Positions 8,088 through 64,000 of a stretch of DNA of 64,000 nucleotides are shown here, piece by piece. A program made the translations under genes and the position numbers. Location of the stretch: positions 186,001 through 250,000 of the forward strand of contig NZ_JAEVLS010000006.1 in assembly GCF_016801985.1 (NCBI RefSeq), read 5' to 3'. Positions within the stretch are counted from its first letter, which is position 1. Each line of letters starts with the position of its first letter. The stretch is from Steroidobacter gossypii (GTDB lineage: Bacteria; Pseudomonadota; Gammaproteobacteria; Steroidobacterales; Steroidobacteraceae). The notes under the pieces were generated by a model. That model searched no databases, had not been told where the DNA came from, and saw nothing but the letters and a program-made list of their open reading frames with translations.

Positions 8088-10133
8088 TTACAGCAGTGGC
8101 ACGAGGAGCAGCGCCACGATGTTGATGATCTTGATCAGCGGGTTGATGGCCGGGCCGGCCGTATCTTTGTACGGATCGCCCACCGTGTCGCCGGTGACCG
8201 CAGCCTTGTGAGTCTCCGAGCCCTTGCCGCCGAAGTGGCCTTCCTCGATGTACTTCTTGGCGTTATCCCAGGCGCCGCCGCCCGTGCACATGGAGATGGC
8301 GACGAACAGGCCAGTGACGATCGTGCCGATCAGCAGACCGCCCAGCGCGCGAATGCCCGCGCCCGGGCCCATCAGGAAATTCATGCCGAAGGCCACGATC
8401 ACCGGCACCAGAATGGGCAGCAGCGACGGCACGATCATTTCTTTGATCGCGGCACGAGTCAGCATGTCCACCGCCTTGGAATAGTCCGGCTTGGCCGTGC
8501 CCTCCATGATGCCCTTGATCTCCTGGAACTGACGGCGCACTTCCACGACCACCGAGCCGGCGGCGCGACCCACCGCTTCCATCGCCATGGCGCCGAACAG
8601 ATACGGCACCAGGCCGCCGATGAACAAGCCGATGATCACGGCCGGATCGGACAGCGAGAACGTCTCCAGCTTGCCGCTCGCGTCGAGGTTGTGGGTGTAG
8701 TCGGCGAACAGCACCAGCGCCGCTAGACCGGCCGAGCCGATGGCGTAACCCTTGGTAACCGCCTTGGTGGTGTTGCCGACCGCGTCGAGTGCGTCGGTGA
8801 TCTTGCGGACTTCCGGCGGCAGGCCGGACATCTCGGCGATACCACCGCCGTTGTCGGTGATCGGGCCGTATGCGTCGAGCGCCACGATCATGCCGGTCAT
8901 CGACAGCATCGCGGTAGCCGCGATGGCGATGCCGTACAGATCGGCGATGTGATATGCGCCCCAGATGGCGGCGCAGACCGCGAGCACCGGCAGGGCCGTC
9001 GACTTCATCGACACGGCGAGACCGGCGATCACGTTGGTGCCGTGACCCGTCTGCGAGGCGGCAGCAACGTAACGCACCGGCGCGAACTCGGTCGCGGTGT
9101 AGTACTCGGTGATCCAGATCAACGCGGCGGTGAGCACGAGGCCGATGACCGCGCAGGCGAACAGATCGACGGCCTGTTCGCCCATCACCATGTCCGACAC
9201 GAACCAGAACGCGATCAGCGCCAGCACGCCGGACACAGCGGTACCCCGATACAGCGCGTTCATGATCTTGCCGCCTTCGCGCGCCTTCACGAAATACGAA
9301 CCGATGATGGAGGCGATAATGGAGACCGCGCCCAACATCAATGGATAGATGATGTAGCGAATGTCGAGAGAGCCGTCGGCGGTGGTGAACATCAACCCGC
9401 CGAGCACCATCGTGGCGACCACGGTGACGGCATATGTTTCAAACAAGTCCGCCGCCATGCCGGCGCAGTCGCCGACGTTGTCACCGACGTTATCGGCGAT
9501 CACCGCGGGGTTGCGTGGATCGTCTTCCGGGATCCCGGCTTCGACTTTGCCGACCAGGTCCGCGCCTACGTCGGCGCCCTTGGTGAAAATGCCGCCGCCG
9601 AGACGCGCGAAGATGGAGATGAGCGAGCCGCCGAAGGCGAGGCCGATCAGCGAATGCAGCGCATGTTCGTCGCCGATCATGCCGCGCATGAGGGTGAAGT
9701 AACCGGCGACGCCGATCATGCCGAGACCGACCACCAGCATGCCGGTGATGGCTCCGCCGCGGAAGGCGACTTGCAGCGCGGGATTCAAACCGACGCTGGC
9801 GGCCTGCGCGGTCCGCACGTTGGCGCGCACCGAGACGTTCATACCGATATAACCGGCCAGGCCGGAGAGAATGGCGCCGACCGCGAAGCCGCCGGCGGTG
9901 GCCCAGTCCAGCGCCAGACCGAGCACGATCAACAACAACACACCGACGATCGAAATGGTGGAGTACTGACGATTCAGATATGCCTTGGCGCCGGCCTGGA
10001 TCGCCGCCGCGATCTCCTGCATGCGCTCGTTGCCTGCGGGCTGCTTGTTGATCCAACCGACCGAAATTACGCCATACAGCACGGCTATTACACCGGCGCC
10101 GATCGCGAGCCAAAGCGCGATATCTGTGGACAT
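8088..10133 (-). CDS. hppA: Membrane-bound proton-translocating pyrophosphatase, K+-independent type
   Basis: Hydrolyses PPi and pumps H+ across the inner membrane (681 aa, about 16 membrane segments). The PPi-binding signature [13 protein letters not shown] and the acidic loop [19 protein letters not shown] are present, as is the C-terminal [17 protein letters not shown] loop. In the region that sets potassium dependence it reads GNTTKA. Lysine at this position (where K+-dependent enzymes have alanine) marks the K+-independent proton-pumping class. The ATG at 10133 follows a GGGGGAGGA Shine-Dalgarno. It lies 167 bp downstream of the PPi-dependent phosphofructokinase on the same strand, an association also known from methanotrophs. 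A terminator follows at 8034-8065. Confidence 0.96.
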
Positions 10134-10300
10134 CAACTTCCTCCCCCTTGCGGGCAATCGTTGTGAACCGAATTTTTACAGCAGGCAGATCGTCAGTAAG
10201 GCAGTTCCAATCCAGGCTGAAGGCGCGCTCAGGCACCGGCGTGCGACCGTGCAAAAGCGCGCGAGTTGAACGAAGTTAACAGCGCAAAAAACGCGCCGGA

Positions 10301-11605
10301 CTATAGCACAAAGGGGGTGTCCAGCTTTTTCTTCACCGCTGCGTTCTTGAGCGTCACATATTGGGGCAGGCCGTCGCGATAGGGCGGGTAATCCTCGCCG
10401 CGGATTAACGGGCTCAGGTAGCGGCGTCCCTTGGCGGTGATATGGAAGCCGTCCTCGGTGATGTAGTCACGCGGCAGCATCTTCTCCTGGTTCGCCACTT
10501 TGTCGAGCGGCGCCATGCCGATCTTCCAGCGATACGGGTTCTGCGAAGCGCGCACGATGGTCGGCATCACCGAGTTGTGGCCCTTGAGCGCCAGCTCCAC
10601 CGCTGCTTTGCCAACGGCGTACGCCTGTTCGACGTCCACCTTGGACGCGATGTGACGCGCGGCGCGCTGCAAGTAGTCGGCGACCGCCCAGTGATATTTG
10701 TAATTCAGCTTGGACTTCACCAGCTGTGCAATCACCGGCGCGACGCCGCCGAGCTGCGCATGACCGAATGCATCGCGCAGGCCGGCATCGGACAGGAACT
10801 TGCCCTCGGCGTTCTTGACTCCCTCGGAGACCACGATGGCGCAGTAGCCGTACTTCTCCACGCATTCCTTGACGCGCGCGCAGAACTTTTCTTCGTCGAA
10901 GGTGATTTCCGGGAACAGGATGATGTGCGGGGCGTCGCCATCCTTCTCGGCGGCGAGTCCGCCCGCGGCCGCGATCCAACCTGCATGGCGGCCCATCACT
11001 TCCATGATGAACACCTTGGTGGACGTCTTGGCCATCGAGGCCACGTCGAAGCCCGCCTCGCGGATCGATACCGCGACATATTTCGCCACCGAGCCGAAGC
11101 CCGGGCAGCAGTCGGTGATGGGCAGGTCGTTATCCACGGTCTTGGGCACGTGGATGGCCTGGATGGGGTAGCCGAGCTTGTCGGCGAGTTGCGAAACTTT
11201 CAGGCAGGTGTCGGCCGAGTCGCCGCCGCCGTTATAGAAGAAATAGCCGATGTCGTGCGCCTGGAACACTTCGATCAGGCGCTGATACTGGGCCGGGTTG
11301 TCTTCGAACTTTTTCAGTTTGTAACGCGCCGAGCCGAATGCGCCGGAGGGCGTGTGACGCAAGGCGCGGATGGCCGCGGCGGATTCCTTGCTGGTGTCGA
11401 TCAAATCTTCTGTCAAGGCGCCGACGATGCCGTGCCGGCCGGCGTACACCTTGCCGATGCGGTTCTTGTTGCGGCGGCAGGCTTCGATCACGCCGGCGGC
11501 GGAGGCGTTGATGACCGCCGTGACACCGCCGGACTGGGCGTAGAAAGCATTGCGTGGGCGGGCCGAGCGGCGAGCATTCTTCTTCGGTGCAGTCTGTTTC
11601 GGCAT
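10301..11605 (-). CDS. pfp: PPi-dependent 6-phosphofructokinase
   Basis: Reversible phosphorylation of fructose 6-phosphate using pyrophosphate in place of ATP (434 aa, cytoplasm). The phosphoryl-donor loop reads GGGDS (126-130), with an aspartate aligned to the position that is glycine in ATP enzymes. The second specificity site reads PKTVDND with Lys155; together these identify the PPi type. GGVTAVIN near the N-terminus and MGRHAGW are further PFK motifs. Length fits the 400-430-aa PFKA-like PPi clade. The start at 11605 has AGG upstream. No ATP-PFK is seen in the window. PPi consumed here or by hppA links glycolysis to biosynthetic PPi. The adk gene is divergent 118 bp away. Confidence 0.93.
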   Translation of the reverse strand: MPKQTAPKKNARRSARPRNAFYAQSGGVTAVINASAAGVIEACRRNKNRIGKVYAGRHGIVGALTEDLIDTSKESAAAIRALRHTPSGAFGSARYKLKKFEDNPAQYQRLIEVFQAHDIGYFFYNGGGDSADTCLKVSQLADKLGYPIQAIHVPKTVDNDLPITDCCPGFGSVAKYVAVSIREAGFDVASMAKTSTKVFIMEVMGRHAGWIAAAGGLAAEKDGDAPHIILFPEITFDEEKFCARVKECVEKYGYCAIVVSEGVKNAEGKFLSDAGLRDAFGHAQLGGVAPVIAQLVKSKLNYKYHWAVADYLQRAARHIASKVDVEQAYAVGKAAVELALKGHNSVMPTIVRASQNPYRWKIGMAPLDKVANQEKMLPRDYITEDGFHITAKGRRYLSPLIRGEDYPPYRDGLPQYVTLKNAAVKKKLDTPFVL

Positions 11606-11723
11606 GGTTCGACCTGTGCAATATGACCGGGCGAAATACCCCGTCCTGATGGTGCGCGAAGGATAGCGCTCGATGCTCGCTTTCTGTACCCTCCCCGGCT
11701 CTCATGGGAGGTCGGATTCAAAA

Positions 11724-12779
11724 ATGATGCGGATCGTATTGCTGGGGGCGCCCGGTTCGGGCAAAGGTACTCAGGCGCAGCGCCTGCAGACCAAATATGG
11801 CGTGCCTCAGGTGTCCTCCGGCGATCTGCTGCGCGACGCGGTGGCGCGCGGCACCGAGCTTGGCAAACAAGCCAAGTCGGTCATGGACGCCGGTCAGCTG
11901 GTGTCCGATGACATCGTGCTCGGTCTGATCCGCGAGCGCCTGAGCCGCCCCGACGCCGCCAACGGTTTCATCCTCGACGGCTTCCCCCGCAACAGCGAAC
12001 AGGCCAATGCGCTGAACGCCCTGCTCGAAGAGCTCGGCCAGCCGTTGGATGCGGTGCTGCTGCTGGACGTGCGCAACGAAACGTTGATGCAGCGCCTCGC
12101 CGGACGTCGTGTGTGCCCGAAGTGCGGCACGGTTTACAACGTGCATACGCTGCCCGAAGGCGTGACCAGCTGCGAGAAGGACGGCACCGAGTTGTATCAA
12201 CGTCCCGACGATAAGGAAGAAGTGATCGGCAAGCGCCTGGCTGTGTACGACCAGCAGACCAAGCCGCTGATCGAGCACTATTCCAAGCTCGGCCTGCTGC
12301 GCAAAGTCGCCGGCGAAGGCGAGCTCGAAGAAGTGTCCGAGCGCATGGAAGCCGCGGCGCTGGCCAAGCCCGTGCCGGCTTCCAAGGTCAAACTCACCAA
12401 GTCATCCCCCAAGTCATCCAAGCCTGCGACCAAGTCGTCTGCACGCGCCTCGGCTGCCAAGTCGGCCAAACCCGCGGCTGTGAAGAAAGGTGCGGCGAAG
12501 AAAGGCGCGGCGAAGAAGGGCGCGGCGAAGAAGGGCGCCAAGGTCGGCAAGAAAGCGCCGGCGAAGACTCCAGCCAAGAGCAAGTCGTCCGCCAAGTCGT
12601 CCACCAAGAGCAAAGCCGCCGCCAAGCAGCGCTCAGCGGCCAAAGGCAAAGCTCCGCGGAAGACGCCGGCCACCAAAGGCACGCTCTCGCGCAAATCTTC
12701 GAAGCGCCCCGCCGCTCGTGGCGCCTCCAAGAAGCCCGCCTCCAAAGCCGCCGGCCGCAAAGCCCGCGCCAAGAAATAA
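11724..12779 (+). CDS. adk: Adenylate kinase with a long lysine/alanine-rich C-terminal tail
   Basis: Interconverts ATP + AMP and 2 ADP. Residues 1-212 are a normal long-type Adk: P-loop GAPGSGKGT at about 8-16, AMP-site LDGFPRN at about 84-90, and a LID with Cys131, Cys134, Cys150 and Asp153. That residue set is the zinc-type Cys3-Asp seen in Bacillus enzymes. Residues 213-351 are an extra tail of Lys, Ala, Ser and Pro, including four tandem KKGAA units, which looks like histone-H1/AlgP-type DNA-binding tails. The frame is continuous with no stop, and the tail is coded by varied codons as well as a 15-bp repeat. ATG at 11724 or 11727; GGGAGG lies 12 bp upstream. Ordinary Adk is about 214-220 aa. 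Confidence 0.92.
   Translation: MMRIVLLGAPGSGKGTQAQRLQTKYGVPQVSSGDLLRDAVARGTELGKQAKSVMDAGQLVSDDIVLGLIRERLSRPDAANGFILDGFPRNSEQANALNALLEELGQPLDAVLLLDVRNETLMQRLAGRRVCPKCGTVYNVHTLPEGVTSCEKDGTELYQRPDDKEEVIGKRLAVYDQQTKPLIEHYSKLGLLRKVAGEGELEEVSERMEAAALAKPVPASKVKLTKSSPKSSKPATKSSARASAAKSAKPAAVKKGAAKKGAAKKGAAKKGAKVGKKAPAKTPAKSKSSAKSSTKSKAAAKQRSAAKGKAPRKTPATKGTLSRKSSKRPAARGASKKPASKAAGRKARAKK
12484..12540 (+). repeat. 15-bp tandem repeat coding KKGAA units in the Adk tail
   Basis: About four near-identical 15-bp units (AAGAAAGGTGCGGCG and variants with synonymous changes) lie in tandem inside adk. They encode KKGAA pentapeptides. Unit number could vary between strains by slippage without breaking the frame. 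Confidence 0.85.
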
Positions 12780-13234
12780 CCCGCGTCCACCGGCACGAAG
12801 ATCGTCCGCAGTTCTACTTCCGCACCGACGTGACGGGTGCGGTGGCGTCCCGGCGTGATGTCACTCGGTGCCGCGCCAAGCGCGGCCCCCAACAGTGCGT
12901 GGTAACGCCAGCGCGTCCGCCCCGACACTGCGTGGTAACGCCAAGCGCGTGACGCTCAAGTCGCGGTGCCAGCAGGCGCGCGTAGAAACGCGCGTTGGGA
13001 GTGTCTTTCACTCCGGCTGCGCGAGGCGCGCGGAAACGCTCGAGTCCCTGCGTCAGCTTGGAAGACGTGGAAGCGTGGACGCGTGCAAGGCGTGGAAGGC
13101 GTGGAAGGCTTGGAAGGCTTCCAAGGCTTGGAAGCGCGTTGGAGGCGTCTTGACTCCGACCCGCGCGAAGCGCGGAAAAGAAAAAAAACAAATCTTCTTG
13201 CCGAGCGACGCGCGAGAGCGCGGAGACGAGGCGC
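12780..13234. other. 455-bp convergent intergenic region with short repeats
   Basis: Lies between the stops of adk (+) and rnd (-). It contains two copies of TGCGTGGTAACGCCA followed by an AGCGCG word (about 12895-12916 and 12928-12949). It also holds a 9-bp tandem repeat at 13087-13131 and a hairpin CCGCGC-GAA-GCGCGG (about 13160-13175) next to an A-rich run. Open frames across it are low-complexity (for example KAWKAWKAW) and have no ribosome site, so I call no gene. No clean intrinsic terminator is visible for either flanking gene. Confidence 0.55.
13087..13131 (+). repeat. 9-bp tandem repeat (AAGGCKTGG)
   Basis: Five consecutive 9-bp units: AAGGCGTGG twice, AAGGCTTGG, AAGGCTTCC and AAGGCTTGG. 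Two degenerate units (AAGACGTGG, AAGCGTGG) lie just upstream. It is in the non-coding gap between adk and rnd. Confidence 0.8.
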
Positions 13235-14344
13235 TCAGGTCGCGCCTTGCAGCCCGGCGATCAAGCGATCGCCGATGACGTCTTTGCGCCAGCCGGTGCT
13301 CAGACGATCGGTGCGACGCGAGAAAACCAGCTGCTCCACGTCTCGGCGAGTGGCGAGGATCTCGGGGCTGACCTTCAACTCTTCCGCGGTAGTCCGCGCG
13401 ATGTTCATGAGCTTGGTCACCATGGCCAGCTGCTGAGGCTCCGGACGGGGCGGCACGAATGAAGCCGGCTCGCCAGCGCCCAGTTCGATACCGCGCGCCA
13501 CCAAAGCGACCAACTCGTCGCCGCGACGGCGAGCGATGCCACCGGGCAGGGTACGGATGTTTTCCAGATCCTGGATGCTGCCAGGCAGCCGTTCGGCGAT
13601 TTCACGCAGGGCATCGTCCGCCAGGATCCAACCGCGAGGCTTGTCGTGTTTGATCGCCGTTTCCTCGCGCCAATGCGCGAGCAACTTCGCCGTGGCGCGC
13701 TGTTCGGGCCGCAGGCGGTCCAGACCTTTCAATCGTTTCCAGGCCGCCTCCGGCTCGGTGCGATGGAGGGACGGAAGCTCCAGCTCGCGTGTCTCCTCGA
13801 ACAACCAGGGCGTGCGCCCAGCTTCTTCCAGCGCGTCGCGCAGATTGAGATACAACGGCACCAGATAGCGCACGTCGTCTTCGGCGTACTGCAGTTGTTC
13901 CGGGCTGAGCGGCCGCCGCGACCAATCGGTGCGCGTATGACCTTTCTCGAGCTGTTGCCCGAGGCGCGCCGCAACCAGTGCGCCGTAGCCGATCTGCGCC
14001 GGCTGACCAAGCAAGGCAGCTGCGATCTGGGTATCGAAGATCGGCCCGTTGAGCGCGCCGCGCATGGCGACCGACAACACTTCCAGATCCTGGCGCGCGG
14101 CGTGTAACACTTTGGTCCGGGCGCGGTCATTCAGGAAATTCCACAGCGGCTGCAAGTCCGGCACCGCCAGCGGATCGATCAGCACGCAGTGAGCGGGCGT
14201 CGCCACCTGCACCAGGCACAGCTTGGGAAAATAAGTGCTCTCGCGCATGAACTCGGTGTCCAGCGCGACGAAATCGGCATCGGTGAGCCGTTCGAGCGCT
14301 TGTAGAAGTTCAGCGGACGTGGTGACGGGTTGGGCGGCTGGCAT
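13235..14344 (-). CDS. rnd: Ribonuclease D
   Basis: 3'-5' exoribonuclease for tRNA 3'-end trimming (369 aa, cytoplasm). DEDDy catalytic residues are visible: Asp29 and Glu31 in LDTEF, Asp86 in HAARQDLEVL, and Tyr153/Asp157 in YAEDDVRYL. An HRDC domain follows at about 205-285, and the C-terminal part looks like the second HRDC-like region of E. coli RNase D (375 aa). The ATG at 14344 (MPAAQPVTTSAEL) is chosen because a perfect -10 box lies just upstream. It is divergent from the small membrane protein before mpl. Confidence 0.95.
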   Translation of the reverse strand: MPAAQPVTTSAELLQALERLTDADFVALDTEFMRESTYFPKLCLVQVATPAHCVLIDPLAVPDLQPLWNFLNDRARTKVLHAARQDLEVLSVAMRGALNGPIFDTQIAAALLGQPAQIGYGALVAARLGQQLEKGHTRTDWSRRPLSPEQLQYAEDDVRYLVPLYLNLRDALEEAGRTPWLFEETRELELPSLHRTEPEAAWKRLKGLDRLRPEQRATAKLLAHWREETAIKHDKPRGWILADDALREIAERLPGSIQDLENIRTLPGGIARRRGDELVALVARGIELGAGEPASFVPPRPEPQQLAMVTKLMNIARTTAEELKVSPEILATRRDVEQLVFSRRTDRLSTGWRKDVIGDRLIAGLQGAT

Positions 14345-14368
14345 GGGCGTGCGTGTACAATTCGTCGC

Positions 14369-14374
14369 ATTATA
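14369..14374 (-). promoter_or_regulatory. -10 box (TATAAT) for rnd
   Basis: Perfect TATAAT on the minus strand, 24 nt before the rnd ATG, which would leave a leader of roughly 17 nt. No good -35 hexamer is seen 16-18 bp upstream, so strength is uncertain. Confidence 0.6.
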
Positions 14375-14419
14375 GGGGAGTCGCCGCCGACACTTGCCGC
14401 TGCAACACGCGTTTCGCTC

Positions 14420-14935
14420 ATGGTCATTTTGCGATTTCTGCAAAGCTTCCTCGACATCGCGCTCTGGCGAAAGGGACCGCAGGACCTGCCGGCGTCGACC
14501 TTGCTGGCGACACTGGCGCTGATCGCCTACATGGCGACCGGTTTCGTGCGCATGCGGCTGTTCACCCTGGATCAGTCCACCGCGCTGCTGTTCATCTGCG
14601 TCGACGTGATGATGATGGGCGCCTGGCTGTGGCTGGTGCTGGCGTTCTTCGGGCGCCGTCAGCGTTTCGTGCAGACCATCACGGCCACGCTCGGCGTCGG
14701 GCTGCTGGTGCTGCTGCTGGATGTGACTTTTCGCTCGGCGCAGCTCGCGCTCGGCTGGAGCGACGAGCTGTCGATGAACTGGCTGATGCTGCGTTTCCTG
14801 ATCACTGCGCTGGTGCTGGGGCGCATCTTCATGCTGGCGCTGGATCGCGGCCTGATCACCGGCATGGCGCTCACCGTGGCCATCGTTTATTCAACTCAGG
14901 CGGTCGTGCAGCTGATGCTCGATCTGCGCGGATAG
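14420..14935 (+). CDS. Small multi-pass membrane protein upstream of mpl, family not recognised
   Basis: Hypothetical inner-membrane protein of 171 aa with about four hydrophobic segments (about 22-42, 50-75, 85-105, 120-165) and few charges apart from RRQR and the ends. I see no catalytic motif. The ATG at 14420 (MVILRFLQSFLDIALW) gives an amphipathic N-terminal helix and fits the divergent promoter region shared with rnd. The gene ends 8 bp before mpl, so it is probably co-transcribed with it, but nothing in the sequence ties it to peptidoglycan recycling. Confidence 0.75.
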   Translation: MVILRFLQSFLDIALWRKGPQDLPASTLLATLALIAYMATGFVRMRLFTLDQSTALLFICVDVMMMGAWLWLVLAFFGRRQRFVQTITATLGVGLLVLLLDVTFRSAQLALGWSDELSMNWLMLRFLITALVLGRIFMLALDRGLITGMALTVAIVYSTQAVVQLMLDLRG

Positions 14936-63179: not shown

Positions 63180-64000
63180 ATGGCGCGCAGGATCCCCGAC
63201 GTTATTGCGGCCGTCGATCTAGGTTCCAACAGCTTCCACATGGTCGTCGCCCGTCATTCGCACGGGCAGCTCACCATCGTCGATCGCTTGCGTGAAAGCG
63301 TGCGCCTCGGCGCCGGGCTCGACGAACAAGGGCGATTGAAGCGCGAGGCCATCGACGTTGCGCTGGCTTGCCTGGAGCGATTCGGTCAGCGACTGCGCGA
63401 CATGAAGGCAGAGAGCGTGCGTGTCGTCGGCACCAACACGCTGCGCAAAGCCAAGCGCAAAGGGGCGTTCCTGGATCGCGCGCGTTCCGCGCTCGGTCAT
63501 CCCATCGAAGTGATCTCCGGTATCGAAGAAGCGCGCCTGATCTATCTCGGCGTAGCGAACACCATGCCGAGCGAGCCGGGCCGGCGCCTGGTCGCGGACA
63601 TCGGCGGCGGCAGCACTGAAATCATCATTGGCGAAGGCCATCAGCCGAAGAAGCTGGAAAGCCTGCACATGGGCTGCGTGAGCATGAGCTCGCGCGTCTT
63701 CAGCGACGGCGCGATCACCGAGAAGCGGTTGAAGCGCGCTCGCCTGGCTGCGCGCCTCGAACTGGAGCCGGTGCAGACGACCTTCAAAGAATATGGTTGG
63801 GATCAGGTCGTCGGCTCATCCGGCACCATCCGAGCCGTCAGCGACGTGCTGCGCGCACGCTCCAATGGCGACGGAATCATCACGCCGGCTGGCATCGACG
63901 CGTTGCTGGAGCAAGTGCTCCGCGCCGGGCACCTCTCGAAGCTGCGCTTGCCTGGACTGGCGGAGGAGCGAGTCCCGGTGTTCCCGGGAGGGCTGGCCAT
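63180..64000 (+). CDS. ppx: Exopolyphosphatase / Ppx-GppA family (3' end outside window)
   Basis: Cleaves polyphosphate or pppGpp. Begins MARRIPDVIAAVDLGSNSFH, with the actin-like phosphate-1 loop AAVDLGSNSFHMVV. VGTNTLRKAKRKGAFL, ISGIEEARLIYLG and the phosphate-2 loop ADIGGGSTEIIIG follow. 273 codons lie in the window and the frame is still open in the VFPGG motif, with the rest off-window. Ppx is likelier than GppA from length of the conserved blocks, but both activities are possible. Confidence 0.92.
   Translation, partial: MARRIPDVIAAVDLGSNSFHMVVARHSHGQLTIVDRLRESVRLGAGLDEQGRLKREAIDVALACLERFGQRLRDMKAESVRVVGTNTLRKAKRKGAFLDRARSALGHPIEVISGIEEARLIYLGVANTMPSEPGRRLVADIGGGSTEIIIGEGHQPKKLESLHMGCVSMSSRVFSDGAITEKRLKRARLAARLELEPVQTTFKEYGWDQVVGSSGTIRAVSDVLRARSNGDGIITPAGIDALLEQVLRAGHLSKLRLPGLAEERVPVFPGGLA

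Follow-up and report, generated by a model that had tools for sequence, protein, structure and literature searches.

A histone H1-like basic tail on the adenylate kinase of Steroidobacter gossypii and its possible role as a tether to nucleic acid

Adenylate kinase (Adk) is among the best-studied enzymes. It balances ATP, ADP and AMP, and is usually assumed to be soluble and to diffuse freely. An Adk gene of Steroidobacter gossypii raises the question of what a long, strongly basic tail does on such an enzyme. The gene lies in the window analyzed here, a stretch of 64,000 nucleotides of contig NZ_JAEVLS010000006.1. Its open reading frame (11724-12779, plus strand) encodes 351 residues with no internal stop, an Adk core followed by a basic tail. 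An earlier note, made from the sequence alone, had described a complete core that reads without a stop into a 139-residue Lys/Ala/Ser/Pro tail, and both points held on analysis.

The core comprises residues 1-212 (11724..12359, plus strand) and was recognized by the Pfam ADK and ADK_lid and NCBIfam adk models, by AlphaFold2, by structural matching and by a residue check. The two Pfam models score 191.4 and 40.5 bits, both above their curated cut-offs, and TIGR01351 scores 253.8 bits against a cut-off of 168. Matches to the two best NCBIfam adk models stop at residues 210 and 211. The core has every one of the 17 conserved residues scored at the P-loop, AMP-site, Mg and LID positions; the window's Adk sequence served as the reference for this check and does not figure among the sequences with losses. 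The LID is of the CxxC...C...D type. AlphaFold2 gives ten-residue means of 90-96 over residues 1-210, indicating a confidently predicted core. The best structural match to the core is human AK2 (2c9y, Z 27.9, rmsd 2.8, 217 aligned residues), with matches within 1 Z of each other counted as tied. CxxC-LID Adks of the B. subtilis/Geobacillus type share the core fold and the CxxC LID, and are 45-47% identical to it in structural alignments. Unlike the window Adk, the best 60 of 90 solved relatives are 181-245 residues long and none reaches the tail. A whole-sequence look-up in solved structures and the structural comparison recovered the Adk core alone. No other Adk was detected in the 7.1-Mb assembly, and the protein is therefore likely to catalyze ATP + AMP = 2 ADP. 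A longer in-frame start is available at 11673; the Adks of relatives were read from an MMRIV or MRIV start.

The tail comprises residues 213-351 (12360..12776, plus strand). It contains 28% Lys, 34% Lys+Arg and no Asp or Glu, and carries a net charge of +47. With the tail included, the protein has a computed isoelectric point of 10.4, compared to 5.4 for the core. A repeat block is located at 12483..12542 on the plus strand; of the four KKGAA units claimed earlier, three are exact and the fourth reads KKGAK. Outside this block the tail is an irregular series of Lys, Ala and Ser. AlphaFold2 ten-residue means are 47-58 from residue 221 on, and the model contains no secondary structure past this residue. 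The tail is thus predicted to be disordered and the core to be folded.

The tail DNA does not look like a product of base composition. It contains 0 stops and encodes 0 Asp/Glu and 39 Lys, compared to means of 2.6 stops, 10.4 Asp/Glu and 4.8 Lys in 5000 single-base shuffles. None of the shuffles had zero Asp/Glu or 39 Lys, and 6% were stop-free. A sequencing error that joined adk to a separate lysine-rich gene, which the earlier note had named as a way for the observation to fail, has next to no probability. No evidence in favor of such a fusion was found. The same architecture occurs in all 14 sequenced members of the genus and in many other genomes, in independent assemblies, and codon usage in the tail matches that in the core (GC3 0.79 and 0.81, respectively). 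Together these observations rule out a frameshift or fusion artefact.

Lysine-rich sequences are rare in the part of this genome that was scanned. Among 3969 open frames of at least 100 residues in 864 kb (12% of the genome, window included), only 3 reach 20% Lys over 60 residues, and the strongest is the Adk, with 35% Lys and no acidic residue. A second, weaker one is a frame of 153 residues (L235, near 16869). A search of the whole genome with the tail scored 150 of its 455 initial candidates and returned three other matches, with E values of at least 0.27 and internal stops. Neither the 12% sample nor this search supports lysine-rich tails as a genome-wide habit.

Is the tail kept in relatives, as the earlier note had proposed to check? 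Within the genus it is. All 14 sequenced species, including S. gossypii, carry a basic tail of 59-228 residues with a net charge of +21 to +75 and 0-5 acidic residues. We calculated dN/dS for the 24 of 91 species pairs with a core dS below 0.9. The values are 0.06-0.23 for the core and 0.17-0.58 for the tail; the latter rest on rough repeat alignments, because tail dS is higher than core dS throughout and reaches saturation (0.9 or above) in 21 of the 24 pairs. The safest values are those of the three close pairs among L003, L004 and L005, since their tail dS is below 0.9, and these are 0.20-0.24. Judging from these comparisons, the sequence and length of the tail evolve quickly and its character changes slowly. 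Charge alone may matter, because sequence and length are barely conserved.

The same data bear on an alternative explanation, near-neutral repeat growth, in which the frame grew by slippage at Lys and Ala codons and the tail is ballast that the cell tolerates. The spread of tail length within one genus, the evident repeats and a tail dN several times the core dN are in line with it. However, dN/dS is below 1 in 24 of 24 pairs, including the three unsaturated ones, Asp and Glu are almost absent in 14 of 14 species, and the Adk tail is the only strong one in the 12% genome sample. The distribution of the tail, described below, adds a point on each side.

The neighboring genes shed little light on the tail. 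A diphosphate-dependent phosphofructokinase (10301..11605, minus strand; NF010675, 662.6 bits) is divergent from adk, and beyond it lies a membrane H+-translocating pyrophosphatase (8088..10157, minus strand; Pfam H_PPase, 907 bits). A ribonuclease D-like protein is encoded downstream of adk (13235..14443, minus strand), with Pfam DNA_pol_A_exo1 and HRDC above cut-off. All 14 genus members have the phosphofructokinase and ribonuclease D genes next to adk, but untailed adk is flanked by them too, so they reveal little about the tail. The phosphofructokinase and pyrophosphatase are ruled out as the reason for the tail, as they adjoin tailed and untailed adk alike; the phosphofructokinase gene accompanies adk in many relatives, whether or not the Adk is tailed. 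Between adk and the ribonuclease D gene, the region 12890-13200 appears repetitive by eye, with GCGTGGTAACGCCA-like and GTGGAAGGC-like units.

To describe the distribution, we called an Adk tailed if it has at least 40 residues past the core, 25% Lys+Arg and a net charge of +10. L146 (34 residues, +11) and L274 (36 residues, +10) fall below this threshold and were counted as untailed. Five tailed sequences end at a contig end (L036, L123, L159, L190 and L192). The sequences read lean towards tailed ones, because the searches were run with the tail included in the query and the loci read were best matches or suspected tails. The family sample consists of 38 Adks from 22 genera. Nine genera have tailed and 14 have untailed Adks, with both found in genus g18. 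The tail is thus dispensable for the family. Across the class, at least 33 of 140 evenly drawn genomes (134 with a match) encode a tailed Adk, a lower bound because some of the matched genomes went untranslated. Among 79 Adks read from the 80 named loci kept from a scan of species genomes, at least four are tailed: L032, L034 (Natronospirales), L036, L076 (Nevskiaceae). All four are proteobacterial by title.

A sample of 150 genomes across the phylum, about 110 of them outside the class, revealed out-of-class tails only in three genomes of genus g250; of the other sequences from outside the class, 19 in one set and 16 in another were read as untailed and the remainder were judged by the extent of the match. 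L300 contained no readable Adk. The g250 tails (L282-L284) belong to another class, so tails are not confined to Gammaproteobacteria. They are Lys/Ala-rich and are found on a shorter Adk of a different subtype. In the one g250 genome examined for neighbors, the tailed adk (L282) is beside rpsM (Pfam Ribosomal_S13, 106.6 bits). The sequences are most simply explained by a separate origin of this tail. Among 216 Adk sequences, all 63 tailed ones have a CxxC LID and none of the 36 without CxxC is tailed; a restriction of tails to CxxC-LID Adks holds in this set and does not extend to the three shorter g250 Adks, whose LID was judged by eye.

A quick tree of 128 cores, 65 of them set as tailed, requires at least 11 changes of tail state, with support below 80 at 53 of 125 inner branches. 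Sequences from outside the class, most named sequences, short cores and sequences with more than 5 X were left out. The P-loop pattern did not pick up L176, L269, L270 and L271, which are absent from the tree; L168, with an N run, and L031, at a contig end, were assigned to the tailed state manually. One group is wholly tailed and consists of 26 sequences from 25 families and one named bin (support 89, not starred). This suggests that the tail is old in the group, in which untailed members may be missing because a tail-containing query picked the loci. Within the window's own family, the sequences read indicate that the tail comes and goes. Such gain and loss agrees with near-neutral growth. 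The occurrence of a similar tail on another Adk subtype argues against it, and we regard near-neutral growth as unlikely.

A few tailed Adks have altered catalytic residues. At the 17 conserved positions, losses were found in 0 of 43 tailed and 1 of 76 untailed Adks (L163, D34E) outside the set of genomes with two Adks; these counts include the order genomes G044 and G057, which have a second partial match. Where a genome has at least two Adk matches, 4 of 21 tailed Adks have losses: L187 (G208; D34E, R89E), L269 (G242; G15D, D34E, D85S), L270 (G296; G15R) and L271 (G241; G15S, R37K, D162E). G15 is a P-loop position, and D85 and R89 are presumably Mg-site and AMP-site residues. Each of these four genomes also encodes an untailed Adk. 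In 19 of the 21 multi-Adk genomes we found 20 further copies, which are untailed, 214-223 residues long and unchanged except for D163E in 15 of 20. The difference between 4 of 21 and 0 of 43 has a p value of 0.009, and that between 4 of 21 and 0 of 20 (D163E uncounted) has a p value of 0.11. We treat the altered copies as a lead and not a result, because the sequences are related to one another. They are a hint of a role for the tailed copies beyond catalysis.

These copies also bear on the possibility that the tail is catalytic or regulatory. The polycation would fold back on the core or gather ATP, ADP and AMP, tuning activity with no role in location. Nucleotides are polyanions, and a linker resembling LAKPVPASKVK, adjoining the core, is kept in most genus members. 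Past this linker, however, no conserved tail motif was seen, the model shows no secondary structure in the tail, and the four altered copies are still tailed. We consider a regulatory tail very improbable. A broader proposal is that tailed Adks form a widespread moonlighting class of H1-like, polyanion-binding proteins, in which selection would act on the role of the tail independently of catalysis. If a tailless second Adk takes over the catalytic work, the tailed copy may decay to a pseudo-kinase that keeps its tail, and the sensing of energy charge, as the core opens and closes with ATP and AMP, might then be linked to the binding of chromatin or ribosomes. We put this forward as speculation and think it rather unlikely.

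Which polyanion would the tail bind? DNA, RNA and polyphosphate are indistinguishable as partners from sequence. The earlier note had raised a tether to polyphosphate, with ppx elsewhere in the window. The tail would keep Adk at polyphosphate granules, where it would recycle AMP and ADP for PPK1 and PPK2. PPK and Adk reportedly have a joint polyphosphate:AMP activity in E. coli, and PPK1, PPK2 and Ppx matches are present in the S. gossypii genome. AlgP, which has a similar tail, is reported to associate with polyphosphate granules (PMC9239181). A Ppx/GppA match was indeed found in the window, but it is at the far end (63243-64000) and runs past it. The ppk1 match starts about 1.9 kb outside the window, on the strand opposite to the Ppx/GppA match. 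The adk gene is about 50-53 kb away and not linked to ppk or ppx.

The occurrence of polyphosphate kinases in other genomes further weakens the polyphosphate tether. We scored PPK1 and PPK2 in 80 genomes chosen by hand and not at random, 53 tailed and 26 untailed, with one set aside (G242, which has both PPKs and was found to be tailed later). PPK1 was detected in 40 of 53 tailed and 23 of 26 untailed genomes, and PPK2 in 37 of 53 and 20 of 26, respectively. Neither was detected in 10 of 53 tailed and 2 of 26 untailed genomes (Fisher p 0.32), and there is no positive association between tail and PPK in this set. Completeness of the ten tailed genomes is 94-100%, and among them are G013, a member of the same genus (99%), and the single-contig G240 and G284. 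Because the tail is also kept where no polyphosphate kinase was detected, a polyphosphate tether is quite unlikely. Polyphosphate may be one ligand of the tail and is unlikely to be the general reason for it.

Known proteins provide a model for the tail. AlgP, an H1-like protein of P. aeruginosa, has a long disordered Lys/Ala/Pro C-terminus with a repeat region of 154 residues; KPAA-type peptides from such tails are reported to bind DNA, and the C-terminus to be needed for granule spacing (PMC9239181). The phasin PhaF of Pseudomonas putida consists of a functional N-terminal domain and an AlgP-like tail described as natively unfolded and DNA-binding (PMC3574117), which is thought to tie its cargo to the chromosome (PMC9239181). 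The window Adk shares the long, Lys/Ala-rich, predicted disordered C-terminus with few acidic residues that is typical of AlgP/PhaF/H1-like tails. There are also differences. The N-terminal domain of AlgP is helical and not an enzyme, the cargo of PhaF is a PHA granule and not a metabolic enzyme, and the regular KPAA repeats of AlgP are absent from the window tail, with its KKGAA-type units and irregular remainder. By analogy the tail may work like those of AlgP and PhaF, and we do not class the protein with them. Streptomyces HU also carries a Lys-rich tail on a folded core (PMC3784963), but its core itself binds DNA.

The earlier note knew of no described case of such an Adk. We found no published description either: in a search that left most subscription journals outside, no title or opening of an abstract pointed to an Adk with a lysine-rich tail. 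The window Adk is not a lone case, as tails recur across Gammaproteobacteria and NCBIfam NF010381 (PRK13808, 335 positions) covers a tailed Adk elsewhere. Its cut-off was passed by 3 of 12 genomes searched, the three g250 genomes, in which an Adk core is followed by a Lys/Ala tail. Unlike the window Adk, this lineage is from another class, has a shorter core and has adk beside rpsM; the window Adk scores 204.4 bits against the cut-off of 426. The parts are thus already known, and one tailed Adk lineage is already in the NCBI family models.

A tail of H1/AlgP-like character kept on an intact Adk is best explained by tethering, as the earlier note had suggested for the nucleoid. On the strength of sequence and analogy, we lean towards a disordered polycation that anchors active Adk to nucleic acid (nucleoid DNA, ribosomal RNA or both) with no sequence preference. 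A single-copy, active Adk with an intrinsically disordered, polycationic C-terminal tail would bind polyanions, above all these two. Part of the Adk pool would then be held where ATP is consumed and AMP and ADP are made, instead of diffusing freely, and could benefit from that location. Tailless E. coli Adk is reported to bind ribosomes with a Kd of 3.7 uM and to change its kinetics on binding (PMC6471074), so the tail would strengthen a known contact.

If this is true, many bacteria would organize their adenylate balance spatially, at the nucleoid or ribosome, and tails of the AlgP/PhaF type would be general tethers. The tailed Adk offers a clean test case, with one enzyme and one removable tail.
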